A stretch of 64,000 bases of DNA from the NCBI GenBank assembly GCA_028532985.1, contig JANCIK010000010.1, positions 682,001 to 746,000 of the forward strand, given 5' to 3'. The notes under the pieces were generated by a model that was not told the DNA's origin, made no database searches, and was given only the letters and a program-made list of their open reading frames with translations. Each line of letters opens with the position of its first letter. The stretch's first letter is position 1. The position numbers and the translations under genes were made by a program. Of the stretch, positions 7,346 through 37,995 are shown piece after piece. The DNA comes from Stropharia rugosoannulata. Taxonomy: Eukaryota > Basidiomycota > Agaricomycetes > Agaricales > Strophariaceae.

Positions 7346-7350
7346 GAACC

Positions 7351-17171: not shown

Positions 17172-17178
17172 TGTTGAG
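17172..17178 (+). repeat. target-site duplication TGTTGAG, left
   Basis: These seven bases directly precede the left terminal inverted repeat and recur as TGTTGAG directly after the right one at 37989-37995. Joined, the two flanks rebuild a stretch resembling an uninterrupted dispersed repeat near 40,050-40,090, as expected of an insertion site. Confidence 0.8.
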
Positions 17179-17464
17179 CACATAGAACAGTCCCCTGGTA
17201 CCGTACATAATAGTGTAACCAGGATCTAAATATATACTATACACTATAGTCTTGTTCCTGAGGAATCTATTTTAAGGTATTGACCGTACCTAATGGACGG
17301 AACCGGTTTCTAACTATGTACCGTGGCCTACGGCTCCATTCTGCCAGAATCCAGGCTCACAGCCACAGTCACATCCCGGTGAGGTCCCGACACCATGCCA
17401 GTCGGAGCCCTGAAAGCACCGACAGCACTGACTGTTGGTGCCCCATCATAGCCCACCTTCCTCG
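17179..17464 (+). repeat. left terminal inverted repeat of the giant KDZ element
   Basis: It starts CACATAGAACAGTCCCCTGG and is matched in reverse complement at 37704-37988. By eye about nine substitutions and one 2-bp indel occur over ~286 bp. It contains an AT-rich stretch (AAATATATACTATACACTAT) that could serve as promoter or transposase-bending DNA. Homology fades beyond 17,464. Confidence 0.85.
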
Positions 17465-17879
17465 ACTTCTGCTGTATGGCCCTCGTCAAATAAAGTATTG
17501 GGACCATTTTGAATATGCCTTACAAGTGTATAAAAGCCTACTTGTCAATAATTTCATTGTCAATCTTCAGAGAAACATATCGCACACCCCACCATCCGGA
17601 CAAGGTCGGCTCGGCCCCGAACACAATTTTTACGCATATGATCAATAGCTATGGTTAGGAAACTTCTACTCCAACTTTTCCGTCTCTGCTACTAGTTGAC
17701 GTTGAAGGACGGATAATCTTTGCAATCCGTCTATACATAGTTCCCAGCATGCTTTTTCCATCAAGAATTGCTATTTTCGGGCATTGGTTAACACTGATAA
17801 TTTTGTTTGGAAATCCGGTCCAAGGTCCATATCATCAATCATTTTTGAGGTGTTGCAGATATCTTCCCATGGGCAGGTC
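17465..17879. other. subterminal region of the KDZ element, no gene seen
   Basis: AT-rich DNA between the left inverted repeat and the first gene. The open frame 17280-17648 starts in the inverted repeat and its right-end counterpart differs by frame, so I do not call it. No repeated motif was recognised here. Confidence 0.5.
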
Positions 17880-18428
17880 TTAATGGACAGTTAGATATAC
17901 TCCTATAATTATTCCATAGCGGGGACCTACGTATGAAATGGGAATTGCTGATGCAATGTCTGTTACTTGATCCAAATTGAAGACAGGGAACTTCAGAAGC
18001 AGTAGGGAGTCAGAGTCAATGTTAGGTTGTCTGATAGTCTTCTTGGGTATAGCTGTTGTGTCCAGGCCCGTAGAAAGTTGAGCTTGAGCATCTTTGTATA
18101 CCGTAAATTCACTGTTTTTATTTTGACCAAACTGATTACTGCGCGGAGGTTGTCTGATTGCTTCATCGGAGTTGGACACATGTAGGACAGTTGTGATTGC
18201 TCTTGGACTCGAAATTTCAAGCAAATCGTCATTGATGTCGATGATCCTTACTGGGCTTGATACTTCGATCTCGTCATCACTGCTTTCTTCAACCATTAGT
18301 GATATGTTATCCTTGTAACCCGGGATTGGAATTGGACTGGAAACCTTGATTTCATCATCACTACTTTCTTCCAGGAGGCTAGCCTTTCTTTTTAAGTTGC
18401 CTACATCATACATTATAATATGCACCAT
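17880..18428 (-). CDS. acidic SSDDE-repeat protein, ~182 aa, possibly partial
   Basis: Reading leftward from an ATG at 18428 the frame stays open for about 182 codons. It contains two imperfect repeats of ~25-30 residues, each with EESSDDEI followed by VSSP, and a shorter third (LLEISSPRA). Hydrophobic residues beside acidic Ser/Asp clusters recall SUMO-interacting motifs, but that is only a resemblance. The frame remains open upstream to 18716, so the start is uncertain. It is divergent from the Zn2Cys6-like gene at 18776, as the 158-aa gene at 58286-58881 is from its Zn2Cys6-like neighbour. I do not recognise the family. Confidence 0.45.
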   Translation of the reverse strand: MVHIIMYDVGNLKRKASLLEESSDDEIKVSSPIPIPGYKDNISLMVEESSDDEIEVSSPVRIIDINDDLLEISSPRAITTVLHVSNSDEAIRQPPRSNQFGQNKNSEFTVYKDAQAQLSTGLDTTAIPKKTIRQPNIDSDSLLLLKFPVFNLDQVTDIASAIPISYVGPRYGIIIGVYLTVH

Positions 18429-18519
18429 TCCATCAATATGTATCACGTACGATGTGCCATTTAGAAACTGGTTACACGAAAGTAAGAACTGGAAAGGATG
18501 GTATTTATCAATTGCCAGT

Positions 18520-18605
18520 CGGAGGTATGCCGACATGCCGGGGATACCGGGGAGATGCCGGAGCGCACCCGAGGATACCGGCAATATCCCGGTCAGATGA
18601 CGCAC
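18520..18605 (+). repeat. GC-rich short repeats (CCGG/ATACCGG units)
   Basis: Between the divergent gene pair lies an irregular run of CCGGGGATACCGG, GATGCCGGAG and GATACCGGCAATATCCCGG units. It forms several overlapping small palindromes around CCGG. It could bind a protein in the shared promoter or simply be a microsatellite. Confidence 0.55.
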
Positions 18606-18775
18606 TTTGGCCCTGTTTGGCTGCCATTGAAATATTCGGATCGCTGCCGGTTTCAACTTGTAACAATCTTTTTCTCCACGCCGTTGCATTGCACGCCTCC
18701 GCTCCCTCTCACTCATTCATCCCGTCCTTGGCCTCATCTATCTGTTCATACCTCCGCTCACACCCCGATCATAAA

Positions 18776-20800
18776 ATGTCATCCTCAATGAATACTGACC
18801 AGGCTTTCCTTGCATCACGGGCCGAATTTCACAAGTCGTTGGTTGATATGTGGGTGTGCCGAGATAGGACCGCATTGGAGGGGGAATGGAATAGCATCTA
18901 CGAGTGTTCATCCAGGGTAAGTACCATCTTATTAGATCCTAATATCACTCACTAATGCGTGTATTCGGCGCGTTCTAATTCAGCTCTGTCGGACAAAGAA
19001 AAATAGGGCGACCACCGGATGGACGATTGTTGACTACATGTATCACTACGGCCTTTCACTGTCGGAATCAAAGAAATCAATGTCGTTCAATGATCTGAGC
19101 ACGCGAATGTCATTGGGTATGAAAACGATGCTCACTATGCAACAAGGAGAGCTAGGGGTGGCAAGAGAGAGTTTGTTTGGCAGTAAGTGCTCTACAAACC
19201 GTATATATATGTTCTCATAATGGTCGCACATAGATGACAACATCCCAACATGGTTCCAACAAGCCCCAGGTACAAATAGAACAGCAATAGCATCACAGGA
19301 TGCAAAGGAAGGCAATGAAGGCAAAGCGAAGGGCACCAAAGGAGAAGGCAGTGCTGCTGCAGCAGCGAAGGTTGTTGCAAAGGCGGTGCAAGGAAAAACA
19401 AAGACCAAGTTACGGAAGGAGTCGAAAGGAAAGGGAAAAGAAAAAGAAATCAGTAAGCCAAAGAGACAATTTTGAAGACCAAACTTTATGCAATATTTTC
19501 CAGATGTTGATGGTTGGGAGACTTTGGCTGAACTTGATGCCAAGCAAAGGAAAAAGAGGCATAGGAAGGTGAGTATATGGATCATACCCAGACATTTGTT
19601 AACAAGCTTGATAGGTGTTTAAATCGAAGCCGACTGTTGGCTCGGAGGACGACCGGGATGAAAACGAGACACAAGTCGGAGGTACACAAGTCGGAGGTAG
19701 TACAGATCCTCCGACGGCGCCGACTCCGGTGAAGGTTGTCGGCCCTCCGAGCCATACCCCTCCGAGACTGCCAATTGAGTCCGCAAAGGCAGACAAAGTA
19801 CAGGATCCAGAGGGAGAGGAGCATGATGTCGAAATGGTGGACGGAACCATCAATGTGATTCCACACAAGAAACAAATTAGTCGGGTGCCCAAACGAAACG
19901 TCAAACCTGAAGTTTGGATTGCAAATGCCAGCACCAGCCACGAGCCAGAGGTTCCGAGGCATATGTCTCGTATTACAAGGAAGTCAATGTGACAGAAGTG
20001 GAATGACACGACCGCTGACGACAACAACACACCCGACTACGCACCATTGGAGAGGGCAAAGGCCCAGAGGCACTCCTGTATTGTCGCCGCCCATGAACGT
20101 TGCAAACGCTGCGCAAGGGGATCTCATGGCTGCTTTTATCCTGATAAGCATACCCTCAACCAGCGCTTGAAATACGAGAAGCAGCGTGGAGGCCCTATTG
20201 CCTGTATGCGTTGCAAGAAAATGAAAGTCAAGTGCGAGGTCGATGATGCTCAAGTTAGTGGAACGATGAAGACCAACGTTGTAACAGATGATGGCTATAA
20301 CAGCTCACCGACAACCGACTCCGAATCGGACATGACCGACAAGGGCGAAGAAATCGAGGAGGGGGAAGATGCTACCGAGTGGGTTCCACGGTCCCAGTCT
20401 AGACCCAACAAGAAACCACCGGTCAGGCAAACAAGGACAACGAAGAAAGAGGTAGAACGATCCAGGTCGGCGCAACCATCTACGTCGGCTCGGCCCTGAC
20501 CCGGCTTGTCCGACATTGGCCTTAGCACACAGCTTGGAGATTTCCTTAAGCCACTTGAAGAATATTTCAACAGCAAAACATCAGAATCCATGCCATTGAC
20601 ACTGGGTGAAGTATTGGTGAAAACACTGGTGGACATTCGAGCGGTTTTGGACGATATTTCGCAGGTTATGGACAAACAAGTCAGTCAAGGAAAACGCTTG
20701 CATCAAATAGCCCAGCAAGTAAACAATAACTTTGAGGCAATATCTCAAATTGCAACAAAAGTGGGATGCTCAGCGGCACGGCGACTCAGCGCATCACGGA
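18776..20800 (+). pseudogene. Zn2Cys6-like / coiled-coil gene, broken by two TGAs and a transposon
   Basis: Exons 18776..18916, 18984..19182, 19234..19452, 19504..19568 and 19615..~20800 join in phase. The last exon has TGA at 19990-19992 and 20497-20499; reading resumes in the same frame after each. Both could be CGA codons hit by C-to-T change. Between the stops is a CX2CX6C...CX2CX6C array (CKRCARGSHGC, then 23 residues, then CMRCKKMKVKC). It fits a fungal Zn2Cys6-type cluster with a long loop and is followed by an acidic stretch. After the second stop comes a helical, probably coiled-coil region (LDDISQVMDKQV..RLHQIAQQV). The 2.4-kb TIR element interrupts it at 20801. The intact counterpart in the second element is at 59071-62192. 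Confidence 0.75.
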
Positions 20801-23209
20801 CATCACGAAAAAGACTTTTGATCGGAGGGCACTTTAGGAAAGTGCGATCAGATCATCAATTGATGGGGCCTTTAACTACTTTAGGATGTCATGAGATGCC
20901 TTGGCATGTCCTGGCATGCCCTGGCATGCTTTGAATTTCCATGCAACGTGGGGAAATAAAGCCAGCTTGAACAACTTTTCCCACCTTCATTGTTGATTTT
21001 CAAACAATAAAATTATACACATTATGTGGGTGACATGCCCATTTAAGTACTTCAAATAGTGCGATAATTTGATTATGTAAGCCTATCCAATATCGCACTA
21101 AGTCGACTAAGTCCTCTAAGTTCACTTGCACTTCACTCTCATGTTCCCCACTCCCCTTCCTCAACTTTTCTTGTATGCTTAGGCTCTACTCTACTCAGGC
21201 AGTCCTTGGTGGCTGCTACCTTGTTAGATCTGGTCTAGAACTTGGATTTATGTCAGGAGGGCAAATGTGGATGGAATAGGCCCATCCCTATAGAGATTGC
21301 TTTATATCGTTGGAACGGTGAACCGCATTATCAAACAGTTTTTTGGTACGTCTTTAGCTCATTTATACGTTTCTAACGCACCCAAGAACACTCCAAACGA
21401 ACCAGTATTCGATGCGCAAACTGGTGATCATTTTGGGACCCCTATTGGAACATATCACCATTTTCTTTCTTTTCTGTTTCTTCCGAGCCCTCGGTCGCCC
21501 CAGATTCATAATGTGGGCAATTAAGCGATTCTAACGAACCCAAGACCGAAGATTTTGGATGTCTGGAAGGCCAGAACCAGCTATGTCTCTCTCCTTCCCC
21601 TGTTTTCCGATGTTTTATCGGTTTTAAAGGTATGTATTGGGTTTATTGCATCGTTCTTTTCACATATGAGCTCCTGAAGATTAAGGGATTCTATCGAGTA
21701 CTTGAACGTTTGATTCTGACGCCTGGAAGCCGTCCAACTGTGATGTGCTCCTCCTGCCCCTAGACTTCCTCTGCTTGAAAGTGCCATAACTTCGGATCCT
21801 GTCTACCTTCACTCCCAATTCCTTTTGCACTTTCAAGACCATCTTAGTCCTCTGCCAACCGTCTCCAAGATCATGGGAATCCATCCTGTACTTGCCAAGT
21901 ACCATCTTATAGGTGTCAAGTGCCCTTAGGACGCAATTTTCCTCATATATCTGTCAATACCCGGCCAAACAGTACGATATTTGCATTTCCTGGTTCATCT
22001 TATTAATACCTATCCAACAGTACCATTAATTGCGCGATTTGACAAGCTTGAGGGCGATCTCACTCTGTGTGTCCTCCTTCCCCTAGGTGGGACAAATTAA
22101 TTCATAGGTGTGCTTCTAGATGTCCTGAGTGTTTCAAACTTTGGGAAAACTTACAAAACTACATTAGGTACCTTCTCCTGAGACGGCTTAATTTATGGGG
22201 CAACCAAGCATCCTTCATCTCCAGTTGTTGGTCAACTTCGGAGTTTTGAGGTATTTCATTGATTCTGACATAGGTTCGTCTTCCATCTCTTCAATTCTTG
22301 CCATGCTGAATTTGCCTTAATTGTATCTTTCGAACGAGCCCTCAAACACTCCATATTGCTGCTTGAAATCCAAAAAACCGCCATGTCCTCCTCCTCCCCC
22401 TCCCTCCTCCAGGTAAAGTACTTCATATCTTAGGTTCCAGTTTGTATTTTTGGCTAATTATTTTTGGAGTCTTTTACTATAGATATGTATCAACTAATCG
22501 ACCAGTTTATGGCGTCCGATACGCCCTCAATATCCAATGTCCCTAATGACCATATGTCAACTATTGCAGACTTAAATATCATCTCCCTCCTTCAATTTTC
22601 AACAAAGGCTTTCGCAACTTGGCATGTTTATTCACCATTTATGTGGGGTTTGAATGCGTTCCTTACACAAATTTTGAGACTCCTGGATGCCTGTGAGTAG
22701 CCATGTCCTCCTCCATCTCCCTGTCTTGGACTAATTTTGCTCTAAGTTGGGAACTACTTCTTCAATTGCGTCGCGGTTTTTTTGAGCTTCTTCGCGTTAA
22801 TTCAGGCTTTCTAACGAGCCCCTGAACGCGTTATTCCGAGCAGAATTACCATCTTCATAAGCGCCCTATCACTGTGTTGTATTATATGTATCTACATGAA
22901 TACTGTATTATCTAGTCTAGTTAGAGTCAATATATAACTTGTTTTGTATAAGAAGTTTGAATAGTACTTGTTAAATAGCATTATATATAAACACCTTTGA
23001 ATGATACAAGGTACATCTGGTGGATCCTAGGATGCCTTGAGCTGCCCTGGATTGCCTTGGGAAAGTTGTACCTGGTAGTTTGCAGAGGGACCTTGCCCTG
23101 AGTGGACCTAAGGGCCCTGGCTGCTTTGCATGCCCTGGCTGCCTTAGGATCTCTAAGGCAGTGCCAGGGAGATACAAAGCCCCTGGGGACAAAAGTCATT
23201 TTCCTGATG
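20801..23209. mobile_element. 2.4-kb non-autonomous TIR element, copy 1
   Basis: The ends are imperfect inverted repeats: CATCACGAAAAAGACTTTTG on the left and, read from the other strand, CATCAGGAAAATGACTTTTG on the right (18 of 20 match). The subterminal regions are rich in CCTGGCATG/CCCTGG units. There is no transposase-size frame, so it needs enzyme in trans. A second copy begins at 50858. Only a 2-bp GA repeat flanks the ends, so I claim no target duplication. It interrupts the Zn2Cys6-like gene. Confidence 0.75.
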
Positions 23210-24011
23210 GAGGTCAGTCCGAAGCCGTGTCATCTTGACTGACTCTGAAAGTGCGTCCAATATGGGCCCGGACATTCAAGTCCAAGATGCCCTGGATGAA
23301 TACACGATCCCCCCACCGACAGAAGAGGAGATGGACGTGTCAATGACGCCCACTCAAGCTCAAGAACACGACAAGGTGGCCATCCCAGACCCTTCAAATA
23401 CGGACGAGCACAGCAATTTATCAACGTGCACATCACGGATGCCACCCAGTCCCTGGCCAGAAAACGAGCCTTCAAAGGCAAATGCACCCGACAATGGTCC
23501 TATTAGATCAGTCGACCCCGAGGAGATCATTGCGCCCGATGTGGGCTCCGAAAGTACAGGCATCCCGGAGCAAGAACCCGAGGTTCTTCCAGAGACATCC
23601 GTATCCACGGAGCACACTGCCGACGTCATTCCCGACGACTCTGTCGCCCCCGAAAATCCGTCTGGCTTCGCTGCCACGTCCACTATGTCCGCCGAGTTGC
23701 CATCACATCGGTCAAGGACGCCCACGCCGGCCTTTGGCATGACCAGCATCGCTCCTCGGAATGCCCCGACCCCGGAACCGGAGCAGCAACTCACAGAGCA
23801 TGATGTGTTCGGTCGAAGAGTTGTCAATCAAGGGATGATGCGGGGAGAAAACCAGGGCCGCCAACAGTGCATTGAGGCGATATTATCCGCAGCTCACCAT
23901 CCCGATGAGAGGTCTGCCGCAGGGCTAGACTCGAATCACAAGAAACACAACACACACAACCCCAGCGGAGCGAGATCCTATCCCTTAGATCGAGCGACGC
24001 TCTTCAGCTAA
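23210..24011 (+). pseudogene. displaced middle part of the Zn2Cys6-like gene (inferred)
   Basis: Immediately after the TIR element the frame is open (RSVRSRVILTDSES) and runs about 260 codons. Composition is acidic and Pro/Ser/Thr/Glu-rich (PPPTEEEMDVSMTPTQAQEH), like the disordered region after the coiled coil in the intact gene at 59071-62192. I read it as the continuation of the exon interrupted at 20,800. The last ~20 codons run into the CCGCTGAG-motif DNA and are probably not original coding. It could instead be an independent small gene. Confidence 0.5.
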
Positions 24012-24112
24012 GCGGATTATAGATATCTACGCTTCTCCTGGTCCTCTCCGCTGAGCGGACTGTGATGTTTTAAGAGTCTCGTGAGTTCAGTCCAGAAGTC
24101 CGCTGTACAGTG

Positions 24113-24116
24113 CCTG
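24113..24116 (+). repeat. LTR element target duplication CCTG, left
   Basis: CCTG precedes the left LTR and is repeated at 27084-27087 directly after the right LTR. Confidence 0.65.
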
Positions 24117-24510
24117 TGTAAGATTTGTTATGTGTTTGTGTAAGAGCGAGCGACGACTGGTGGGGTCGTCTTGAGGGTAGTTCAAGGCAGAGAAATAAGA
24201 GAATAAATGATCGACTAATGTAGAGTGAATTTGACGAGGTAAGGCTCTATAGACTTATTGCAACTGAGCTGTGGATGGTAAAACGAAGGTGGGTCGTAAA
24301 TTAACTGCCTAGCTACATGTACACGACGTCCTTTTATACTGTAAAAGCATGTATATATAAATAAAATATAAAACTTCTCCTAACTCCTGAGGGCCGACCG
24401 AGTTCTCTCCAGAATATTCTTGCCATGATGCCCGAAACCCAAAGATATTCCTTCGATCGATCTATACCAAATGGATCTTTTCTGCGCGCACGCAAATAGC
24501 GCACCTTACA
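24117..24510 (-). repeat. LTR (3' LTR of the minus-strand element)
   Basis: This 394-bp repeat starts TGTAAG and ends CTTACA. It appears identical to 26690-27083. It contains a TATA-rich stretch (ATGTATATATAAATAAAATA). A purine-rich tract (AAAGTGGGCATGGGA, minus strand) abuts its inner side, as expected of a polypurine tract. Confidence 0.9.
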
Positions 24511-24542
24511 TCCCATGCCCACTTTAAATGCTGAGTTCCACC

Positions 24543-26393
24543 TCAGCGCGGAGTCGGGACTTGGTAGCTCCACATTTGTTCTTGGAATGTCCTTTCATTG
24601 CGACGGGCCAACGTTCTCCAAGTGTAATGAGCACAATCTCGATGAGAATAATTGACACATGAGCCTCGGGTGCCTGCATCACCGTAATATCCACACTTCT
24701 TCCTAGGATACCTGATTCTCCATGAATTCGACAGTTTTTCACCTTTATAACCTCGTGTCGATTGATGTCCGGAGTACTGTGTATGCGTGCTGGATTGTCG
24801 AGGGATGTTGCGACTATCTGTATCGTAGCTGTGTTTATGCCGTGACTTGTGTGCGCCACCTTGATCCGGATCCATGCCCTTAGCGTTGTGAGTATCTGTC
24901 ATCTTCGAGGAGAGTGCGCTCTGGTGGACTTCGTGCATTCTTTCTGTACGCTTGGGGCCTGATATAACTTCATTTGAAACCTGCATTAATGGCCTGTCGT
25001 GAGTAGTTGCCATTGTTTGATTATGTTTCCAGCCGCTACACTTGTTCAAATAATTTTCAATGTGTGCACGTTCCATTGGTTGAAGTAGTTTGCCCGTACT
25101 AAAGTCAGCTGTAGCAGTCGCACTATCGATTGCACACGTCTCGGCTTGTTGATCTTGACGATCTCGGGATACGGTACAAGCTAAAACATAGACTTTCTCT
25201 TGTTCTTGTTCCGGTCTTGCTGCATCCGGCGGGTAATCATCTTTGATCCATGAATAAAAGAAAGTGTCGCGCTTTTGTAATACTGGTTTTGTTGGATTTA
25301 TAATCGCGGTATGTGATGATTTCTTTTGGTAATTTCCATCTGCAATTTCTTTCGAAATAACCCTGGCCTTTATCTCGAGGTCTGACGGCACTTTCTCTAC
25401 AGTTTCATTCGCTTTTTCTGGGCTTTGTTGAAGTCTACTGTCTCGTTGTTGTGTAGCTATGTCTTGACAGGGACGAAGACATGAATTGTTTAAGCAAGAT
25501 GTATGCGGTGTATTTGTCGTCTGCATGTGTAATGACCTGTACAGTGTACCGGAAGGCACTGGCTTTGACAACTGTTCATCAACCTGCTGCGTTACGGAAT
25601 GCATATCATTGTCGTGCTTGAGGCAGTACGGCTGCCTGCTTAACTCCGGGCTGGGTGTGCTCTGACCAATGTTGCCTTGAAGTGTCCGCTTCATCCCACC
25701 GTCATCCTGCTTGGTTGTTTCTGTATCTGGCAAGCGGCATGAGATTACGAATGTTGCAGTCTCGTATAACTCCGAAAGGCTGAAAGGATCGTCCTCATGG
25801 TGTTTCGGATACTGGAGCTTGAGCTGGGCCCTGAGCTTGGCTATAAATGGCAAATTAAATCCTGAAATAAACAGCTTGCTCGCCTCCCTGTCGGTTACGC
25901 GATTCCGGCACTTGAGGAAATACCAGACTTTGAAGAATTCTCGGTAATATGCACCAAAATTGTCTAGTGTATCCATAGCCTTGCAACGTTGCCGCACGCT
26001 AAGCGTCTCGAGGTCGGCTAGTCTGTACCTGCGATCATCATCAGACCCTGGATAGAAGCCGTAGACATGTGCCTTGAAGAATTCCCAGTTGTCTTCGCAC
26101 ACCTGAGCTGCATATTTCCATAGCTCGTAGTCATCTGTCGGTGCATAAAGTACTGTCCATTTAATCGTCTGTTCAACTGTTAGATTACATGCTTGTGAGA
26201 GCATCTCGAGCTCGTCGAAGAACATATCCAGATGCGTCGGGATTCCTGTGAACTTCGGTGCTGATGGGTGTGAACGTCCGGGCATAATGAGCAACGTGGG
26301 TGCCGTCATTGACGTCATAATTCCCGTGTCACTATGGATGGTTATGCTCGGCTTCCTGTTCAATAACGGTGGCCGTTCGTGTGCTGTACTCAT
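24543..26393 (-). CDS. gag-like capsid protein, 616 aa
   Basis: The sole frame of the LTR element. Residues ~35-220 look like a retrotransposon gag (capsid) domain: a PKFTG start, FFDELEMLSQ, WKYAAQVCEDNWEFFKAHVYGFYP, and a helical YYREFFKVWYFLK region. The C-terminal half is low-complexity and basic. No standard CX2CX4HX4C zinc knuckle is intact in this frame. A GHSKNKC-like remnant is readable in another minus frame over 24,524-24,859, which suggests a frameshift near the 3' end. The role would be particle assembly and RNA packaging. The start at 26393 is the first ATG of a long uninterrupted frame. Confidence 0.75.
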   Translation of the reverse strand: MSTAHERPPLLNRKPSITIHSDTGIMTSMTAPTLLIMPGRSHPSAPKFTGIPTHLDMFFDELEMLSQACNLTVEQTIKWTVLYAPTDDYELWKYAAQVCEDNWEFFKAHVYGFYPGSDDDRRYRLADLETLSVRQRCKAMDTLDNFGAYYREFFKVWYFLKCRNRVTDREASKLFISGFNLPFIAKLRAQLKLQYPKHHEDDPFSLSELYETATFVISCRLPDTETTKQDDGGMKRTLQGNIGQSTPSPELSRQPYCLKHDNDMHSVTQQVDEQLSKPVPSGTLYRSLHMQTTNTPHTSCLNNSCLRPCQDIATQQRDSRLQQSPEKANETVEKVPSDLEIKARVISKEIADGNYQKKSSHTAIINPTKPVLQKRDTFFYSWIKDDYPPDAARPEQEQEKVYVLACTVSRDRQDQQAETCAIDSATATADFSTGKLLQPMERAHIENYLNKCSGWKHNQTMATTHDRPLMQVSNEVISGPKRTERMHEVHQSALSSKMTDTHNAKGMDPDQGGAHKSRHKHSYDTDSRNIPRQSSTHTQYSGHQSTRGYKGEKLSNSWRIRYPRKKCGYYGDAGTRGSCVNYSHRDCAHYTWRTLARRNERTFQEQMWSYQVPTPR

Positions 26394-26689
26394 ATCTATA
26401 TTGGCTTTCGAAACCTTGTGTGTCCAATGGGGGTCCGTAGCGTCGCAGTGAAACAGTATTACAGGCTTTTGCTAATAGTCGTCTGCTAGTATTGCCTATA
26501 GGGGTCTGAACTGGGGAGGTACTTGATGCCGTCTAGCTTCGGGGATATGTAAAAATAGATAAACTATTCCTGTGTTGGTAATTCCAAATTTGCGTGTGTA
26601 AACTCCTGTGCGACTTCTGGGTAACGCTTCGGCAACTGTGTACTGAGTGTTTCTTCCTTAAACAACCCCCCCTCGCGGTGGGCTCCAGT

Positions 26690-27083
26690 TGTAAGATTTG
26701 TTATGTGTTTGTGTAAGAGCGAGCGACGACTGGTGGGGTCGTCTTGAGGGTAGTTCAAGGCAGAGAAATAAGAGAATAAATGATCGACTAATGTAGAGTG
26801 AATTTGACGAGGTAAGGCTCTATAGACTTATTGCAACTGAGCTGTGGATGGTAAAACGAAGGTGGGTCGTAAATTAACTGCCTAGCTACATGTACACGAC
26901 GTCCTTTTATACTGTAAAAGCATGTATATATAAATAAAATATAAAACTTCTCCTAACTCCTGAGGGCCGACCGAGTTCTCTCCAGAATATTCTTGCCATG
27001 ATGCCCGAAACCCAAAGATATTCCTTCGATCGATCTATACCAAATGGATCTTTTCTGCGCGCACGCAAATAGCGCACCTTACA
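26690..27083 (-). repeat. LTR (5' LTR of the minus-strand element)
   Basis: The second 394-bp copy, TGTAAG...CTTACA. It is upstream of the gag frame in transcript orientation and so should carry the promoter. CCTG follows at 27084-27087. Confidence 0.9.
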
Positions 27084-28267
27084 CCTGCAAGTTCGTTTTT
27101 TTTAAGGAGGGGTTTAATTCTAGAAGTCTCAGATTAATGTCTGGGCGACCTCCGCTGAGCGCCGGGTATCGATAGTAATGTATAGTTTTGATGGTGGCTC
27201 CGCGGGGCTTATTCCGCTGAGTGGGTTTGAGGTCCGGTGACCGATGCAGATGCTCACACAAGCTGGTATTCCAATTGTGCCTCGCTCCGCTGACTATCCA
27301 AAGTCGTTCCGCTGGGACTGTCCAAAGTCCTATTCCGCTGAGGCTATCCAGAACCTCGTTCACCCGGTGGTGCAGTCTCAATTCACAAAACACTACAGCG
27401 CAAGTTTTCGTACACAGTTGCACTGACTCCCCGCTGAGCTCTCCAAATGACCCGGTGGCCAGAAGCTATCCAAAACTTCTATGATTCACAATACACTTCA
27501 CAGTAAAGACCCTAACAAAAGCTAAACACAGCCCGCTGACGGTCTGGGACGGAGCCCAACACACAGATCTAGTGGGTAGACAATGGCTTGATTTCCGTAG
27601 TTACAATTACAAGTTTATATAGACGCGCGTTGTGTACTAATTTAGGTGGAGAGTAAATACTAGCAACGCCGGACCAAAGGTCCGCTGAGCGCATGTGCCT
27701 CTGCTGGGCGCCTTGATGGCTACTCTGCTGAGCGCAACCTGATCCTGTTGTGTTACCAGCCCCCGCCGAGAGACACCGTTAAACTCCGCTGGGCGGTTCC
27801 GTCTTGGTCATCGAGGCCTGGTTACCGCTGCCAAAGTTCCCCAGCGGAGCCCGTGCTATGTGCGTTGTTTATTCCCCCGGGCATCACACGCTCCAGCGCG
27901 CGCGCCACGGTCACCTGACGAGTGGACTTAGGCAAATTTCGCCTTCGTGATGTGTTCCGCTGAGCCCCTTTGAGACACTGTCTACACACAGTCCTGCTTG
28001 TCGCCTTTGATATTTTCCGCTCAGCTGTACTCCTGCCTTCCGCTGGGACGACAGTAACCGTTATGTGCTCCGCTGACTGCTATTCCGGGTACTTCAACTG
28101 TGTACTTATGGCTTGTACAGTCCGCTGAACCCCACACAACCGCCTGCTGAGCACACACGTGATGATTTGTGATGCACGCGCTGAGCGCTGAGACGGCTGA
28201 CCAGGCTAGTCACCGCTCCGCTGTACCCTTGCACTCCAGCCCAAACCGCCCGCTGTGGCCACTTACT
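27084..28267 (+). repeat. region with ~20 dispersed CCGCTGAG-type motifs
   Basis: No convincing gene. The motif (T)TCCGCTGAGC, exact or with one or two changes, occurs about 20 times, nearly always on the plus strand, spaced irregularly by 20-150 bp. Examples are near 27,150, 27,210, 27,330, 27,682, 27,957, 28,070 and 28,122. A few more (some inverted) lie at 23,960-24,105 on the other side of the LTR element, so the LTR element split one motif-rich block. Confidence 0.8.
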
Positions 28268-28621
28268 ATGGACAGCGGCTCTCCCCTGACAAGTGTCGAA
28301 GATGATGAGCTGCGTGAAGAGGACCCAATCCCGTCGACATCATCGGCACTGCAGTCCGGGACGGCCCCGATCCGGTCGGATGCGGATCAATCAAATTCAA
28401 CACTGAGATTGTCCCCGACAAGCAAGGCTAGTGTTTGGAAGCTCAGTCCATCTGCCTTGCCATTGATCCCGGAACAGGAGCAAACTGGGCAGGAATCTAT
28501 TGGCGAACGCATGGCACGCAAAAGGAAGCGGGGAGATGGGACCGCAGAAGCACATGCTCCTGGCATGTTCAAGAAAACACCCAGGATGATGCCGAGCAAA
28601 ACCTCTAAGCCTAAAAAGTAG
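28268..28621 (+). pseudogene. C-terminal exon-like frame, probably the end of the Zn2Cys6-like gene
   Basis: The frame starts near ATG 28268 (MDSGSPLTSVEDDE) and ends in a basic tail with a likely nuclear signal (RKRKRGDG, then KKTPRMMPSKTSKPKK). The intact gene in the second element ends similarly (VIRKRKVDE...KKRKLSEE). Order and strand match, so this is probably the last exon of the broken gene starting at 18776, separated by insertions and motif-rich DNA. A small independent gene is the alternative. The tail converges on the companion gene at 28708. Confidence 0.45.
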
Positions 28622-28707
28622 CCTTTTTGTTCAGTGCACTATTAATTTACATGTATATATCAATTGTAAACACTACTATATTTTGACAATATTACAAAAG
28701 CCATTCC

Positions 28708-30929
28708 CTATTTTTTGTTCTTGTCATGAAATGGTGGAGACCCTACTACTGTTGGACTAGATCCAACCATTTCATCATAAGCTCTTCCCTTCTCTGATCT
28801 CTTGCGAGGTCTTTTGCTTGTATAGCGAGTATTGACCAGCTCTGTAGTAGGTGTTTGAGGAATATCTGCTTCCTGAATCAGGGTTTGCATATCTCTTCCC
28901 CGAATCGGGGTTTGGTCCAACTGTTGGCTGTCATCAATTTCTGCAACATCTTGCACATCGGGGATTGTGGTAGCAACTATTTTCTGTATAGCCGATTTAC
29001 CTTTTGGGCGAGGTTTTGGTCTTCCCCGAGCAGTCGGTACTGCCCCGATCGGGATCGTCAACGGAGTCGGTGCTGACCCGAATGCATTGTACGCACCGGG
29101 TTCAAGATGATCAGGGGAGGCAACTTTATTCCCTTTTGACTGACCCAATATCCTTTTCTTATCTTGTGCCTGTTTGGGTTTTGGTGAGTTTGTGATTTCA
29201 GCATAGGATGTATTGGTAATTGCCTTTATGGGAGGTGTGCCCCTGACATTTGAATCTGGTGTTGCCATCTCAAGTACAGAGTTGGAATCGCTGTATTGAA
29301 CTTTTTGTGGTGTTGAACTTCTATCTGTCATTGTGTTTGTTTCAAGAGTGGATGAACGAGTTGTTGTGCGGGTATTGGTGTCTGCATTGGGGTTCGGGTC
29401 GGAGTCGTGCTCGGAGTCGATGTCGGTGTCGGTGTCGGGTCCGAAATCGATGTTAATCCCCTCTGTTCCCATTTCTCCTACATCTGTTTCCTCAAAATTG
29501 GCAGAAGGCTCTGTAAAGTATTTGAAGCTATCAGGTGGGTACATAGCTGCTCTTGGTTGTTCTTCTCCTTTGACATTAGAAAATTTGAATGGTATTTCTC
29601 CCCGTGATTCCCGATGTCGCCACAACTTTAAAATACACATTGTCTGGTCCACCTTGTATTTGTGCGGGTCCATAAAAGATATTCCCTTTGGCATATATAT
29701 GGGGTCAACGAAGAAGCTCCAGTGATAGTCACCCGTCGTCATGTACGTATATGGTGTTGACCTCTTACCACCATAAGCTAGTTTGTAGTGTTGTGAAAAA
29801 TAATGATGTATGCCTTTTTGTTGGACATCCACGTATTCTGTTCCGGTACTGCTTGGAGCAGGAATGGGCACACGAGGTAAGCCACCCTTATGAAACATTG
29901 CAACTGGTTCGTCATTCGGGTGACCGCCGAATGTCGGCCCGGTCGTGGCAAGTTTGACAACAAATTTTGTATATTCAATGTACTTCTTCAGAAATGCATT
30001 GTACTCATTTGGCGCCCACCGTTGAAAGCTTGGAACATGCGAAGGGGTGCTTGTCTGAATATTTTGCGTGTCGAAACTAAAAGTAGTATATTTTGCCAAG
30101 GAAATGGGAATAAATATATATATATACTTACCTCACATATATCCCTGTCCCATCCGGCCCTGCAAAGCAAGAGAATGATGTTGTTCTTATGCCCATACTT
30201 TCCCACTTAACCTTATCGGCAGCCTTGGCAACCTTTGTTGAATATTTCAAGGCGTTGCTGGTAAATTGTCAGCATGTATAGACATATGTTCAAATATATG
30301 GGGCGCACTCGGCTTGAATATCCTTTGGGACTCCATTTTGTTCCCAATTCTCCAACTCTCTCAAATACTCCTGACGCTCTTTGTCACTAAGGTCCTCTTT
30401 AATTTTCTTTTTTGCACCTTGGTAGTAACCAATCCATTCCCGACTGCTAGCATCAATGTCGGCACTGGCCCGCTCCCATGCAAGAGTTTCAATTTCCTTC
30501 TTTTTCTTCGCCATTACAACACTATCAAAGGTCACTCAGTGATTAATTCCAGGTATTTGGAGTGTTCACTGTTTGCGGCCATGGTTACGAAACCAATTGT
30601 ACACATGCTGTAAAGAACTCGGTGAGTGTACTGCTGATACCGACACTCGGTGCCTCTGACATGCTAGAGATTCTTACCACTTTCCTTTTTTTCCACTGCT
30701 TCTTCGCCTCGGGATCTTTCTGTAAGGAATTGTGGCTGTATTTGTCGTTGTAGCACTGCCTAATCAAGGGCAACACAATATCTCTTAACCAGGCGTTTTT
30801 TTTCCCTTTCTTTTGGGCTTGGTATCCTTCTATGTGGGTCTTCAAGATTTCTTTTTCCTTCGAAGTCCAAAATTCCGGCAATGAAGGTTCCTGATTCATG
30901 ACTACTGGTTGCTCCACGGAATCAGGCAT
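28708..30929 (-). CDS. KDZ-element companion protein, 665 aa
   Basis: Five exons read in frame on the minus strand: 30929..30678, 30607..30570, 30521..30309, 30257..30132 and 30076..28708. The N-terminus is a helical basic module (FWTSKEKEILKTHIEGY, then KKQWKKRKV, then YNWFRNHGRK) resembling a DNA-binding or tri-helix-like domain. I recall proteins of this type beside agaricomycete KDZ transposases but cannot name a Pfam family. The middle part (FQRWAPNEYNAFLKKYIEY, GDYHWSFFVDP) is probably globular. The C-terminal half is Asp/Thr-rich with basic KRPRKRSEKGR. It is divergent from the transposase with ~690 bp between starts. A DNA-binding or partner role in transposition is inference. Confidence 0.75.
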
Positions 30930-31615
30930 TGCAGGGACAGTTTGGCTAGGAGCGGAATGTTGACAGTGCACTATCACGATGAAATCAATTAGAAACCAAG
31001 TAGTCTAGCAGTTCCTGTTCGGCTCCCCGGAGTGATTATATCAATTGGATCTGCAGCCCAATATATCCGCACCAATACAGATTGTCCCAACATGATATGA
31101 CGACATTCGTTTGTATTGGATCAGCAACTCAATATATTTGCACCAATACCGATCTTTCCGACGTCATACCGTTACTGAAAAACATATAGATTACAATGCC
31201 GGAAAGGATTACACTTTAGATACTTTGTTCATTGTATATAACTAAATGAATTCCAAACTTTTAATTAATTGTAATTTACTGTTACAATAAATGGGAAGTC
31301 ATCATTAATCTATTGTCCTGGTGAGGTCTACTGTTAATCCTATTGTCCCGGTGAAGTCTACCATCACAAGCTCAATGCGCTACATTGTTATGAGCACAAT
31401 ACCGGAATGACTGTAACAACCGCTTTACTTACAGTAACTATTGTGCATACTGGGATATTCAACAATACACATAAATGAAATAAAACAATAAGAGTACAGC
31501 AAAAGAATTAAACATGGTTGACAATACACGTGCATTAATTGTATAAAAGTAATGTATACTATGCATCTCAGAACACCACACCCACCCTTACCTCTTTATT
31601 TACTCCGCCTACACA
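30930..31615. promoter_or_regulatory. shared divergent upstream region, companion gene / KDZ transposase
   Basis: AT-rich DNA without a gene. It contains a direct duplication of ~37 bp (31045-31081 and 31115-31152, core CACCAATAC preceded by CAATATAT) and a shorter pair near 31,313 and 31,341 (CTATTGTCC.GGTGA.GTCTAC). Being between divergent starts, it should hold both promoters; the repeats are candidate protein-binding sites. Confidence 0.5.
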
Positions 31616-34600
31616 ATGAGTTCACGTGGTCACATACATATGATGGCCACTAACACTGACGACAACGAGCCCATTCATCTGGACGAAAATGGCCGATCTG
31701 TTTGTCGTCATCGGGCACATGCTCGAATTTCAAGAAGAATGCCGGGAGTGTATACCGTGCCACTGCCATCTACTAGACCACTGCAAGCTGCACAACATGA
31801 GAACAATGCTGCAAACATAATGACAATGGAACATTACCCTGGTGATATAACACACGAGCAGGCAATCAGCAACCTTAACGCTTTACCTGCATTTGTGCAC
31901 CGAGGAAAAGTGAGTGATGGATAAACAAGCACATTATAACATTGACGAACGTACTTGAACAATAGTCACAAAATACATTTCTTTGTGAATGGTTGCAACG
32001 CCACAAGCAGCACTTACAAGTCTTCATGGCTAAAGAAGCACCAGCACCAGAGAATCTGAAATGTCAGGCTTGCAATGTGAATCAAGGCAAATGGCAGTGC
32101 CGAGATTGCTTTGGGGGTCGATTTCTCTGCACTGTTTGCTGCTGTAGGGAACATCAATTCCAGATACTACACCGCATAGAGAAATGGGAAGACACTTGCT
32201 TCAAGTTAGGGGCTTTGTGGCAGATAGGAATCAAGCTACACCTTGGTCATCAAGGACAAAGATGTCCATCAAGACCCTATGTTGAAGACGCACGTAAGAA
32301 ATTAGCTATTCTCTGAAACAGGATGCTCACCGCACAAAGATCCAAATTGGGAGTTACCAACAGCTGACATGGCCGCTGATGACTTTCATGAAGCTGATCT
32401 GGAAAGAGAAACTCAGATTGGCGCCGTTCCGGAACTGGAAGACTGGGAAGACGAAATCTTGGAGGAGGAATTTGATATGAGACTAGGATACCCACATATT
32501 CTCCCTAGGCCGAAACTATATGACAATCAAGACAACAAATTCATCACCATTGTTGATGTGACAGGAGTTCATCATTTACCCATTGTCCGATGCCTATGCA
32601 CAAATGCACCACAGGAGCCTGATTTACACTGGATTGAAGTGTCAATGTTACCTACAAGTTACGACAAAATTGAGACTGTTTTTACATTCGCCGCTCTAAA
32701 GGACTTTCGCATCTCAAAGCTACGATGTCTTACCTGCCCATCTTATCCTGCCGCAGTGGTCGATCGGTATCGGGAGCTGCACCGACTAAGCAGATGTTAC
32801 TGCAACATGAAACTGTGGAAAATGCATGGCCGGGCTCACGATAGGCAGTTCTACGAATTCGGGGCCGGGACAGCACACAACATGAATTCGGAGCCCACCG
32901 AAGCCGGTACAAATGTCGGTCCCGATGACAATGTCCCCGACCCAATGCAAATCTCGGTCGACTCTGATGGTGGATCGGACACCTCACCAATCCAGATGTC
33001 GGTGGCCTCCGACACCGGATCGGATACCGATGCCGAGTTAGCATCGGTGCCAGCGTCGGTGCACCCTCCATCTACCCGTAAGCTAGACCATCTTGCCCTA
33101 TTCTGCCCTACATGTCCACAACCTGGCATTAATTTACCAGAGCATTGGGAAATGGATCCTCACCAATATCTGTATATTCGCAAGTTCTGTGCAGATGGGA
33201 ATTTCAAGGCAGACCACCTAAATCAACGGAATGAAGCCGACGACGTCCACCTCACACATGGAGATGCATTTATGACAGCAGCACTACCCTACAAGGAGCA
33301 TCTGGCAGAGGCATCCAAGCATTCTAAGCTTTTTAAGCAGGTACGGAAATCTCTTTATTTCTGACAATGTTCTGATTATTAAATAAGAAAATTGATTGTC
33401 ATTCTCACTAAGCACAATTGGATAGTGAGAAGGTTGTAGCTGGCAGAAGGGCTAGGGGAATTGGCGCCCAAGCCTGTGCAAGACATGGGTGCTTCTGTCC
33501 CAGCAGTGTTGTCGATTTTCAGTTAGGTGAAAGGCAAATGTGCATGGATTATAGCTTTTCAGAAGCACTGAAGAATACGAACATGGACGGGATCAAGCAT
33601 GCAATGATGATTTACGATATCATGTGCATATATGGCATTCATCAAAGAGCCTGGTTTTTTAAATTAAAAGGTCTTTCGCTTCCCCGCCAGTTAAAATTAA
33701 TCCGTGCCATTGGATTATGGCATGTTCATGGTCACAAGGATGAATGTTTATACCGGTGGGCATCCACTTACATTCCCGGTGCTGGCATTGTTGATGGGGA
33801 AATATTGGAAACACTTTGGAGTCTATTGAATAAAGTGTCTAGGGGTGCTCGGGGAGTGATAACGGCACATCAAACAGAAATTCTAGATGACCACATAGGA
33901 GACTCGAACTGGAAGAAAATGATTCATATAGGTTAAAAAAAGCCTCGGTATTTCTTTAAGTGTGCGCTGATAAAAACTTACACAATCAGGAACGACAATT
34001 GTGAAGAAATATACCAGGGCTATCAAAGAGTCTTCAGAGGCGTCTGAACACTTTGAGCAATTCAGCACCCGCATTGCGCCAAGCATAAGAGACAGATGGG
34101 AGGCCGAAATAACTGTTGCTGAGAGCCAACGAGAACTTAAACCTGACAGCATGGATATTTACGCACCAAAAATAAAGAAAGCGGCATCTAGGCAGGAGGT
34201 TGAATTAATGTTGTCCGAAAAGGAAATGTCGGAGGACGGACCAACAGGTCAAGCTACATGGCTATCGCAAGGACTTAGAATTGAACAGACACAGTAGGTT
34301 TATGATAAAGAAACAGTCCATGTCTGATCATTGCAATTCCATAGGGCTGAATTAAGATCTCACGTTCAGAAGTTGTCCAAACAACCCACTGTAACTCAAA
34401 GACAGGATCTTCTGCGTCAGTGCCGAAATCTTCGGACACGAATTGAAAAATTTGTGTGTCAAGCCTGCGAATATGTTGGGCGAGAAATTGTCTCGGTCTT
34501 CACCGACAGGGACAATACTGCCATAGTGTTCGAAGAATCCGACAATGAAACCAATTTTACCAATCATTTGGAAGTGAGTCGGGCCAACCCCGAGCAACAA

Positions 34601-35605
34601 ATGCTCCCGTTCCTGTCTGGATTCACTGCCAACATGATTGATCTCCTCGACGTTGACCAGACACGTTTTCTTGTTGAACTGAAAAAACAGGAACTTGAGA
34701 TTTGCAAAGGCCACGCAGGAGATGTACTCGAGGCAATCAGATCAGCAATAGTCCAACTTTCATGGGTGTACAAAAATCAGGTCCGAGGCACAACAGGGGC
34801 ACATCATACAAGGGCAGCAACAAGAGTTAGTATGCTCTCAACAGCAATTGCATTAAACAGGCAGGTATTTCAAGCAAATAGGGCTGTTATGGTCTCCTTA
34901 GCATCAGAGGAGATCATACAACAAAGATTTCCAAGGTTGACCAGAGAGGACACCCATGCAAGCCAAGCGGTTTTTGATCCAAATGTTCGTGGGGGCAGTC
35001 GAATGCGTATGTCATGGATATGGAGGACAATCAGTGGAAATGACGAGAACATCGGTGACAGGCCGACAGATACCCCAACACCGCCTACCGATGATAATCT
35101 GGATACACTGCAAGACAATCCTAGATTGCAAGATTGTATGTACATTGTGAAGTCATTGCCCAAACTAATACTTAACTTTCAATTTGCAGTTCTCCGAGTA
35201 AATTGGCTCCGTGCACGAGCACAGCACCTTCACTGGACAGAAGAGCTTAACTTGACGAGAAACAAAATGAACTGGATGGTTCGGTTCTTTGTCTTTAAAG
35301 CAAAGTCGTGGAAGCAACATTGGGATAATATCGTTGAGGGGCTTTACTGGGATACCTCTGAGTATCGGTCCGATTCCGATGCCGACAGCCCTTCCGGAAC
35401 TGCACATTCTGATGCCGAGGCTGACTCCAAACACGTTCCACTGCCAACCGTCCAACATTCTGCGCTGGAACGTTGCATTCTTCGTGGTTTCAGGGCCTAT
35501 GCAGAGAAACAACTTCGGATGTGGAATGAGTTAGGGTGCATCACACAAGAGCTATTTGCCTCTGTATATCATAACCATTCATGTTCCTGGGAAGAAGTAC
35601 AGTAA
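31616..35605 (+). CDS. KDZ-superfamily transposase with CxC2 cysteine cluster, ~1217 aa
   Basis: Exons 31616..31909, 31966..32293, 32322..33340, 33430..33931, 33990..34293, 34345..35135 and 35190..35605 give one open frame. Residues ~131-167 form a CxC2-like zinc cluster (CQAC, WQCRDC, LCTVC, then two His). A KDZ hallmark FCADGNFKADHL lies at the end of exon 3. In the core (about 563-715) I see ACARHGCF, GERQMCMDYS, IYDIMCIY (Asp ~610), HVHGHKDEC and GAGIVDGEILETLW (Asp ~669, Glu ~671/674), then LDDHIGD..WKK, matching the KDZ RNase-H-like catalytic region. An acidic Ser/Asp insertion is at about 420-460. The exon 3/4 junction is the least certain. It should cut and join the 286-bp inverted repeats in the nucleus. 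No disabling change was seen. Confidence 0.9.
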
Positions 35606-35729
35606 TTAATTACATTCAGTACGGTAACCAAACATTTTGATGCCCGGTTCTAAATGTCACATGACGTCAGATCACTGATAAGACACTGTTGATATAAATT
35701 CATTCTCCAAGCTTTTACATCTTTACATC

Positions 35730-36069
35730 ATGGATTCCAATACCACTGGCCTAGTTGGCAAAGTCCCATTTCCCATCAATGCATCTAACTTCAGCAACTG
35801 CCAGGAATGCACTAAAATCAAGCTTCAGATACTCATGGCTCAGGTTCGCATGGCAGCAAGATCTGTGTACAAAGACATTTGGGATGGACTGCCGTTTTGG
35901 TACAATATCACAGCCAAAGTTGTGAGTATCTATAGTATAAATTTAATCGGCTGACGTCAAACATTCATCTTAGGAGGCTGCATTATCATTCATTGGCTTT
36001 TGCCATATACAGGGATTTATAATGGAGATTCCATACGTATTTGTGGACACCATGTACCAAAACCTTTGA
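35730..36069 (+). CDS. possible small protein, ~95 aa
   Basis: Exons 35730..35921 and 35974..36069 join in frame (AAAGTT/GTGAGT donor, TCTTAG acceptor). The N-terminal part (NCQECTKIKLQILMAQVRM) is coherent and helical, with a CxxC pair. The last exon overlaps the 3' end of the TET gene on the opposite strand, so the ending is doubtful. Family not recognised; possibly the start of a longer gene cut short. Confidence 0.3.
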
Positions 36070-37222
36070 AGATATTGCAATTATTGTTCCATCCTTGTAT
36101 GGCATTTTGACTCCTAGTCCTGGCAACTCAAAGTACATATTGCATATACTGCCGATGTTGATTAAAATGTCAAAAGCACTCGGCTCAGCCACGGTATCTC
36201 GGTGAAACGGAGTTGCTCGATTACTGATAATTGTCACTGCTGTAAAAGGGGCGCTCCAAAATTTTAATACATCGGCGAGAACCGGGGGTGTATCGGATAG
36301 GCTACTTGCGATGTTGTTCAGATACCTCAGGCATTCGATTCCCTGCTGGTACTGCTGAGGATGAATTATTGAGAGCAAACCACCGATCATGGCAGACAGC
36401 TCAGTTTGCTTTTCAGCCAATCATGGTTCTGCTCATTTTTCAGAGATCTCGACATCTCCAAACTGTTGGAAGTCTGGTAGTCTTGCATAAGCAAATTAAT
36501 ATCAAGTTTGTTACGAACATTACCTCATGTCCGACTTGAAACCATGCAGGTGCAAAGGAAATTGTTCCTGGGGGGATGTTCGGAGTTCGATGCCCGGTAC
36601 CTCGGCCCCAGTCCGATCCCGAATAATTTGTGGGCATATTTTCACTGTTGTAATATATTGGTCCACTCTGTCAATTGTCCAATTTGCTCGTGATTTTGAT
36701 AGAGGAAGCTAAGGAGGCCACATCATCCCAAATCATACTCTACAACCTTGGTTAGTGTTTTTACGTGGTCATAATTTGTCACTCAACAGATCTGGTTTTG
36801 GTAAGGCTGTTAGGCAGATACCAGAACAAAATGTTGCCAGCTATGTCTTTGATTATACAGGCCTCATTGATAATGGGCATACAATTTTCAAGCTTCCCAA
36901 ACTGTTTTATTATTTTGGCTTCAACTTCTTCATTTTGACCGTTCTGTTTAGGAGTCAGATACGTGACATACTCTTCTACATTCCAAGATGTCTGCTCTAG
37001 AATTTGCTTTGGTAAGCAGCCATCAAATATAACATTCAATATCTCACTTTGATTAACAAACGCAATTACCAGCTCGTCAACAATGTCGTTGCAGTCGCAT
37101 CAGAGACATGCATTGTATGGCCAAGGTGCATGGAACTCTTCACCCTTTATCAATGTCTGAAAGCGAGCCTTCATGTATTTGGCAACAACCTCAGTAATAT
37201 CAAGTGCTAGCAAAGAGGTCAT
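35986..37222 (-). pseudogene. fungal TET/JBP 2-oxoglutarate/Fe(II) dioxygenase, inactivated
   Basis: Exons 37222..36788, 36739..36524 and 36462..35986 join in phase 0 to 375 codons. Hallmarks are NILFWYLP, GHRTP.IPPGTISFAPAWFQVGHE, and the jelly-roll core TPFHRD (His 36204-36202, Asp 36198-36196 for iron) with a distal VLVHGV (His 36054-36052). Relatives oxidise 5-methylcytosine. Four in-frame TGAs (37102-37100, 36673-36671, 36435-36433, 36423-36421) break the frame. Each could be CGA changed by one C-to-T. The position where relatives carry the 2-oxoglutarate-binding Arg reads CAT (His, 36024-36022), again one transition from CGT. It is convergent with the transposase end, the usual KDZ-TET pairing. 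Confidence 0.85.
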
Positions 37223-37703
37223 TGTACTTGAGATTGAGATAGCCTGGGAAGAGAGTCAAAAGTACTGTAGTACCCCTATCATAAAATGAGATTATCGATC
37301 GTCATTCACGTGCACACAAATATGCCATCAGATAAACTGGCATTGAATTTGGCTTGTTAGTACTTATAGCTAAAAAATGGCCTTGGAGAGCTTGTTCATA
37401 TCAGATGAAGAAACACAAATAACATGTTGGCGCCGAGCCGACTGACTCTTCGGATGAACTTTTTCCTCGCTTTTAATTGTAATGCTTACCCTTATCAGTT
37501 TGGCCCAGTGTTACTAGCACAAACAGGTAATGGAGTAGAGGGAAGACTGTATATGTACCGGTGCATGACATTTGGCTTTGTTATTAGTGCTGAGTACACA
37601 TTCCAGGCGGTGGTTCATGTGATGAAATTGACTGTGATAGCTTCAATAAGTCCATATTACTCATTAAAAATAGTCCCGATAGTTTGACAATGGCCTGTAG
37701 CAG
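37223..37703. other. right subterminal region of the KDZ element
   Basis: No gene called. The frame 37424-37687 has no recognisable domain. This is the upstream side of the TET gene, so its promoter should lie here. Nothing else recognised. Confidence 0.5.
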
Positions 37704-37988
37704 TTGAGGAAGGTGGGCTATGATGGGGCACCGACAGTCGGTGCTGTCGGTGCTTTCGGGGCTCCGACTGGCATGGTGTCAGGACCTCACCGGGATGTGA
37801 CTGGCTGTGAGCCTGGATTCCGGCAGAATGGAGCCGTAGGCCACAGTACATAGTTAGAAACTGGTTCCGTCCATTAGGTACGGTCAATACCTTAAAATAG
37901 ATTCCTCAGGAAGAAGACTATAGTGTATAGTATATATTTAGATCCTGGTTACACTATTATGTATGGTACCAGGGGACTGTTCTATGTG
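37704..37988 (-). repeat. right terminal inverted repeat of the giant KDZ element
   Basis: The reverse complement of 17179-17464; it ends GGGGACTGTTCTATGTG, followed by the TGTTGAG duplication at 37989-37995. Confidence 0.85.
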
Positions 37989-37995
37989 TGTTGAG
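37989..37995 (+). repeat. target-site duplication TGTTGAG, right
   Basis: Perfect repeat of 17172-17178. The following GAGACGTTG..CAAAGTGGAAGAG belongs to the dispersed repeat seen also at 16,720, 40,080 and (inverted) 48,440, showing that the element landed in a repeat. Confidence 0.8.

Follow-up and report, generated by a model that had tools for sequence, protein, structure and literature searches.

A decayed KDZ transposon, most likely a Kyakuja element with a TET/JBP gene, and its relatives in Stropharia rugosoannulata

Two long inverted copies of one sequence in the genome of the agaric Stropharia rugosoannulata raise the question of whether everything between them has moved as a single transposon, to which kind such a transposon belongs, and whether the genes inside are its own or have been captured from the host. 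The stretch analysed here (the window) comprises 64,000 nucleotides of contig JANCIK010000010.1 (assembly GCA_028532985.1, C10:682001-746000; further contigs are numbered alike), and the genome searched amounts to 48 Mb in 20 contigs. We consider the interval 17179-37988 of the window, hereafter E1, to be very probably a large KDZ transposon of the cut-and-paste kind, now decayed, and most likely of the Kyakuja type that carries a TET/JBP dioxygenase gene.

E1 is 20.8 kb long and is bounded by terminal inverted repeats (TIRs) of 287 bp at 17179-17465 (plus strand, starting CACATAGAACAGTCCCC) and of 285 bp at 37704-37988 (minus strand), which have been delimited by self-alignment and agree at 275 positions, with 10 mismatches and 2 gap columns. 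Flank comparison has identified the target-site duplication (TSD) TGTTGAG directly outside them, at 17172-17178 on the left, where the related empty sites agree, and at 37989-37995 on the right. Both the ~286-bp inverted repeats and the flanking TGTTGAG had been proposed by a first-pass annotation made from the letters alone, and both are borne out; its description of the element as complete applies to the two ends and not to the contents, as the transposase, the TET gene and a gene termed X are damaged in E1. When the outer flanks are joined, they align through the junction at C10:839683-840737 with 199 identities and 26 mismatches (score 275, as compared with a top score of 27 for 200 shuffles of this locus); the junction is gap-free, and the target is present once, one base off TGTTGAG. 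A second related empty site at C10:1030488-1031550 aligns with 179 identities and 21 mismatches (score 229) and small gaps at the junction. Since the flanks of E1 align contiguously at two other loci, E1 has inserted into a dispersed repeat as a single unit. The empty-site paralogue that had been placed within the window does have counterparts on the same contig, but both lie outside the window, and among the window copies compared the repeat near 40,050-40,190 matches the right flank only, not both flanks.

Regarding further copies, the 17-bp terminus has been found 39 times in the genome (18 forward and 21 reverse) and its reversed control pattern not once; a 24-base search tolerating up to 3 mismatches has returned 45 occurrences and again none of the control, and the left TIR, used as a nucleotide query, has given 40 matches. 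Pairing of convergent termini has resulted in 17 candidates, 16 of them 1.7-52 kb in length and one, on C1, a doubtful pair of 148 kb. As the first-pass annotation had anticipated of such a search, target duplications recur: 12 of the 17 pairs show an exact TSD of 7 bp, no other exact length having appeared among those tested (4 to 12), and the chance of one exact 7-mer is ~6e-5 if equal bases are assumed. According to TIR similarity, E1 forms subfamily A together with E2 (C12:1775478-1793399), E3 (C2:1029856-1078372) and E4 (C2:1111785-1153944), subfamily B contains E6 (C9:2693756-2714141) and E7 (C13:1554586-1606741), and subfamily C contains E8 (C13:2429030-2446191), E9 (C9:2633898-2680645), E10 (C7:2422904-2441373), E11 (C1:2697633-2715893) and E12 (C7:2063590-2095817). 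Four small pairs of 1.9-4.4 kb carry the same termini (C14:12495-14393, C14:203652-205701, C8:3362784-3365474 and C13:1419880-1424238), two of them with an exact 7-bp TSD, and are probably non-autonomous derivatives. Solitary termini are also present in the genome; two on different contigs, C10:236444 and C13:2721670, have identical 20-bp flanks, which suggests a duplicated segment.

The interior of E1 has been compared with those of E2, E3, E4, E6, E8, E10 and one stretch of C12, the interiors of E7, E9, E11 and E12 being left out, and a common backbone with insertions on top has emerged. Translated comparison with E6, E8 and the C12 stretch shows that four genes, TET, KDZ, Y and X, are present in E1, E6 and E8, i.e., in three subfamilies, in the order TIR-TET>-<KDZ-Y>-<X-TIR, in which TET and KDZ are convergent and KDZ and Y divergent. 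The KDZ transposase gene of E1 (31616-36042, plus strand; Pfam and comparison with relatives) encodes a CxC2 cluster (E 1.6e-8, 35.1 bits, cut-off 27) and a KDZ domain (PF18758, 5.8e-32, 111.6 bits, cut-off 26.6), both above the Pfam cut-off as expected of the CxC-type transposase that had been recognised at this locus. The TET/JBP dioxygenase gene (36043-37255, minus strand; Pfam and translated comparison, 5' limit not fixed) matches Tet_JBP at 8.6e-15 and CcTET at 4e-17 with the HRD motif kept. Like CcTET (PDB 7vpn, 8jkk), it has the dioxygenase core with HxD and a downstream H, and the alignment places an Asp at the position of CcTET Asp337 (numbering of PMC12730594); it differs by an Ala at the place of Gly331 and by its truncation just past the third and last iron ligand, beyond which ~30 residues are missing. 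Genome counts for TET, Y and X are lower bounds. Among at least 32 TET loci, one of which scores below the Pfam cut-off, 27 have KDZ no more than 10 kb away and 25 have Y no more than 15 kb away.

Gene Y (28708-30929, minus strand) is open in E1 and encodes 665 amino acids in five exons, with splicing assigned by us. At least 61 genome matches merge to 38 loci, and in 31 of these a KDZ start lies at most 10 kb away (in seven none does), a range that takes in 3.5% of the genome; in all 31 the nearest KDZ lies on the opposite strand. A stretch of Y resembles the GTF2I repeat: PF02946 scores 19.8 bits against the Y core of E1 (Pfam cut-off 27) and matches 6 of 16 aligned Y rows, many of them single exons, at E <=0.1 (best 6.8e-5). 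In a profile search of the PDB the top three of four matches have been repeats of TFII-I, GTF2IRD2 and GTF2IRD1 (E 0.0059, 0.12 and 0.4), and genome-wide only the Y of E6 matches PF02946 below 1e-3, at 25.5 bits and thus again under the cut-off, while 14 control genomes gave none.

Gene X (plus strand) is split in E1 by two nested inserts, A and B, into a first part at 19615-20800, which holds two half-clusters of the form C-x2-C-x6-C and is predicted to form a long helix, a second at 23209-23908 and a last at 28267-28621; probable upstream exons at 18560-19193 have been located by tblastn matches to E6 and E8. In E4 the X frame extends over 758 codons. Each of the at least 13 genome matches of X belongs to the E1 family: 11 lie between two TIRs, and the remaining two, with a known TIR on one side only, lie inward of it at about 3 and 16 kb. 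The six cysteines of the two groups are invariant in five aligned X proteins, which represent three lineages and include two close pairs. In Gal4-type clusters the order of the halves is opposite to that in X. We infer that X and Y both bind DNA. CCGAC/GTCGG motifs have been noticed after the fact at TIR positions 208-255, with 3-5 per TIR in eight TIRs of X-bearing subfamilies and 0-1 in five other TIRs.

A more relaxed terminal pattern, CACATAGAACAGTGCCTGGGTACC with <=3 mismatches, occurs at 121 places, some of them from the E1 family, as compared with one for the reversed control, and thus delineates a wider family. In all ten pairs drawn from the matches listed the TIRs are >=300 bp long and 99-100% identical, with an exact 7-bp TSD in six and one mismatch in two. 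By coordinate overlap, matches to TET, KDZ and Y occur together in six of the ten, and among the other four the missing match is TET in two, KDZ in one and Y in one; comparison with the genome X matches has placed X in none of the ten.

Between subfamilies, each of the four genes shows fewer amino-acid-changing than silent differences per site in the stretches tested. For E1 and E6 the ratio of amino-acid-changing to silent substitution rates (dN/dS) is 0.21 for KDZ (1284 codons), 0.30 for TET (165) and 0.15 for Y (461), and the corresponding ratio of observed differences (pN/pS) is 0.22 for the E1 X pieces (278 codons). For Y, pN/pS is 0.27 in the comparison with E6 and 0.33-0.34 in those with E8 and E10. 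Within subfamily A pN/pS lies closer to 1, at 0.58-0.67 for KDZ, 0.55-0.66 for TET, 0.37-0.44 for Y and 0.41-0.45 for X. Silent divergence between E1 and E6 is uneven (KDZ 0.53, TET 0.47, Y 1.21, X pieces 2.9), which suggests an exchange of halves between subfamilies.

E1 itself has been heavily altered. An in-frame stop at 33409-33411 (plus strand) interrupts the KDZ domain exon and is absent from E2, E3, E4, E6 and E8, and at 36040-36045 some 1.7 kb or more has been deleted in comparison with the relatives, which clips the ends of both KDZ and TET: the missing sequence holds ~30 TET residues and the stretch by which the KDZ frame extends beyond the 3' end in relatives, 521 codons long in E4. 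Nested inserts recognised by comparison with relatives account for ~6.8 kb of the 20.8 kb. Insert A (20801-23208, 2.4 kb) has PlavakaB-like ends; read to 23209 it shows CATCA..TGATG with a 2-bp duplication and read to 23208 CATCA..TGAT with a GGA duplication, CATCA..TGATG being the termini given for PlavakaB (PMC12730594). A second copy starts at 50858 of the window, both beginning with CATCACGAAAAAG. Insert B (23909-28266, 4.4 kb), at whose edge ~40 bp of the element that are present in E2 are missing, contains a long terminal repeat (LTR) element on the minus strand (24117-27083) with CCTG on both sides; its 394-bp LTRs (24117-24510 and 26690-27083) are identical, therefore its insertion is recent, and its 642-codon minus-strand frame has matched no Pfam family at E <=0.1. 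Over three blocks, with the E1 changes polarised by agreement of E2, E3 and E4, private changes affect 111 of 766 CpG C/G positions and 27 of 3740 other C/G positions in E1, whereas the respective numbers are 33/610 and 16/3805 in E2, 20/586 and 6/3808 in E3, and 12/568 and 5/3813 in E4. This concentration at CpG in E1 is the pattern left by methylation followed by deamination. At present E1 is unlikely to be mobile through proteins of its own.

Several observations weigh against the Kyakuja-type reading as sketched here. Five of the 17 pairs show no TSD, namely E3, the doubtful 148-kb pair and three small pairs, one of which matches in its flanks (CAAGGAT) when re-paired by eye as C4:3142969-3148789 with the outer terminus at C4:3142969, and in two of the ten wider-family pairs nothing resembles a 7-bp TSD. 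Decay is not confined to E1, with stops in Y of E3 and E4 and in TET of E2. Bootstrap ranges within subfamily A extend to 0.90-1.01 (KDZ), 1.04-2.03 (TET), 0.79-1.25 (Y) and 0.67-0.85 (X) and reach or pass 1 in most of the close KDZ, TET and Y comparisons; consequently selection is shown between subfamilies and not within A. The E1 X pieces rise to a pN/pS of 0.48-0.49 against E8 and E10, and X as a whole changes fast, the complete E4 frame giving 0.50, 0.54 and 0.59 against E6, E8 and E10, where silent sites are close to saturated. Its structure model is weak save for a 55-residue helix, the cysteine region being of low confidence. For Y, the GTF2I similarity stays under the Pfam cut-off in every test and has not been confirmed by fold comparison (weak structure model, structure search). 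The Kyakuja assignment draws on TSD length, ends and TET similarity rather than on a tree, and two Laccaria Kyakuja families are reported without TIRs (PMC12730594), compared with ~286 bp or more here; known for two families, this absence we take as variable and not as defining.

With these reservations, the decayed Kyakuja-type transposon has to be set against other explanations of the locus. That two members of an unrelated repeat family happen to lie inverted around unrelated genes draws on the solitary termini in the genome and had been named at the outset as the outcome that would undo the proposal; the exact TSDs in 12 of 17 pairs, the related empty sites and the shared inner gene order refute it, and its probability is practically nil. 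The extra genes might instead be host cargo of a Starship-like carrier, as the large size (pairs up to 52 kb) and the several genes besides the transposase could suggest, and host genes are possible in the unclassified extra length of the 42-52-kb copies. Starships are not known to have TIRs and carry a tyrosine-recombinase captain at one edge. Here, by contrast, TIRs accompany a fixed 7-bp TSD, no captain domain has been detected by Pfam among 18 scanned proteins and exon pieces, which do not cover every frame, X is confined to the E1 family (13/13), Y tracks KDZ (31/38), and about a third of E1 consists of nested inserts, so a Starship-like origin appears very improbable. Accordingly, of the transposase and cargo genes annotated inside the repeats, the former stands, while the supposed cargo resolves into element genes shared across subfamilies and nested transposons: as far as seen, E1 appears to contain four element genes and nested transposons and no recognisable captured host cargo. 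A Zisupton rather than Kyakuja sub-lineage would fit the long TIRs, Zisupton being the lineage characterised with TIRs, and TET-carrying Zisupton elements are reported in Agaricomycetes; Zisupton however makes 8-bp TSDs (PMC12730594), as opposed to 7 bp in 12 of 12 exact cases here, and we judge this assignment improbable.

How a Kyakuja-type element of this composition would work can be outlined conditionally. The KDZ transposase would bind ends sharing CACATAGRACAGT, cut them and insert them at target cuts staggered by 7 bp. The TET enzyme would oxidise methylated cytosines on element DNA and thereby ease silencing, and Y and X would act as element-borne DNA-binding helpers, Y partnering the transposase across the wider family and X, probably as a dimer, acting on the TIRs of its own subfamilies. 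After its entry into the dispersed repeat, E1 itself was probably methylated and lost CpG by deamination, and it received three later insertions and one deletion. In its boldest form, TET-carrying Kyakuja elements would be multi-gene machines in which a transposase, a 5-methylcytosine dioxygenase and helpers (a GTF2I-type Y and an X whose permuted zinc cluster reads CCGAC-type motifs in the TIRs) find, unsilence and move their own DNA, in which case the TFII-I repeats of vertebrates would have a common origin with a domain carried by transposons; we hold this to be doubtful. Unlikely, too, is the reading in which X and Y are mere passengers that contribute nothing to transposition and the KDZ transposase suffices by itself. 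Wider-family elements have inserted without an X match, whole X evolves fast, Y is broken in some copies, and the transposase described for Cryptococcus KDZ elements is of the KDZ/CxC1 type (PMC12810828). Passengers would, on the other hand, hardly be expected to show the low pN/pS of Y against E6, E8 and E10 and of the X pieces against E6, or the six cysteines kept in five X proteins of three lineages.

Some further features of the window have been recorded. A low-confidence candidate for an additional gene at 17880-18716 (minus strand) is open over 278 codons and 28% alike to E8, whose frame has stops. Outside E1, an inverted duplication of 1939 bp (41102-43040 and 45613-47551, 99% alike and 2572 bp apart) has arms that also match pieces of 6304-7457 at 78-92%, and a direct duplication (108-2139 and 10707-12752) at ~10.6-kb spacing has matched pieces that are 72-81% alike.

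Exact ends, TSD and related empty sites are now given for a TET-carrying transposon family, and two further genes with signs of selection appear to travel with its transposase. This allows asking whether a transposon counters host methylation with a demethylase and DNA-binding helpers of its own, for which CpG-decayed E1 beside its less decayed sisters offers a natural test. The delimitation of a whole fungal KDZ element, thought unusual in the first-pass annotation, has precedents in Cryptococcus KDZ1-3 (PMC12810828) and in the TET-carrying Kyakuja families (PMC12730594). The latter, described from Agaricomycetes by Kojima (2025), have 7-bp TSDs and CA..TG ends, with CcTET as a relative, and CA..TG termini are likewise found on the E1 family; Kyakuja-1_LB and Kyakuja-2_LB share with it the KDZ transposase, the CcTET-like TET/JBP gene, the TSD length and the termini, whereas the sections of PMC12730594 compared here describe no Y or X gene for Kyakuja. 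Cryptococcus KDZ1, KDZ2 and KDZ3 are likewise entire KDZ elements; their TIRs are long (241, 139 and 169 bp), and they have been caught inserting, but they differ in their length of 9-11 kb, their CxC1 type and their 8-bp or 4-8-bp TSDs, TET not being mentioned in the passages compared (PMC12810828). The TET-carrying IS3EU elements of rusts resemble the E1 family in a third conserved gene oriented opposite to the transposase, and differ in the transposase itself, the 6-bp TSD and the identity of the third gene, an alpha-kinase (PMC12730594). The kind of element is thus already known, and it is the long TIRs on TET-carrying Kyakuja-type elements, together with the conserved genes X and Y, that go beyond the parts of these two accounts compared here.

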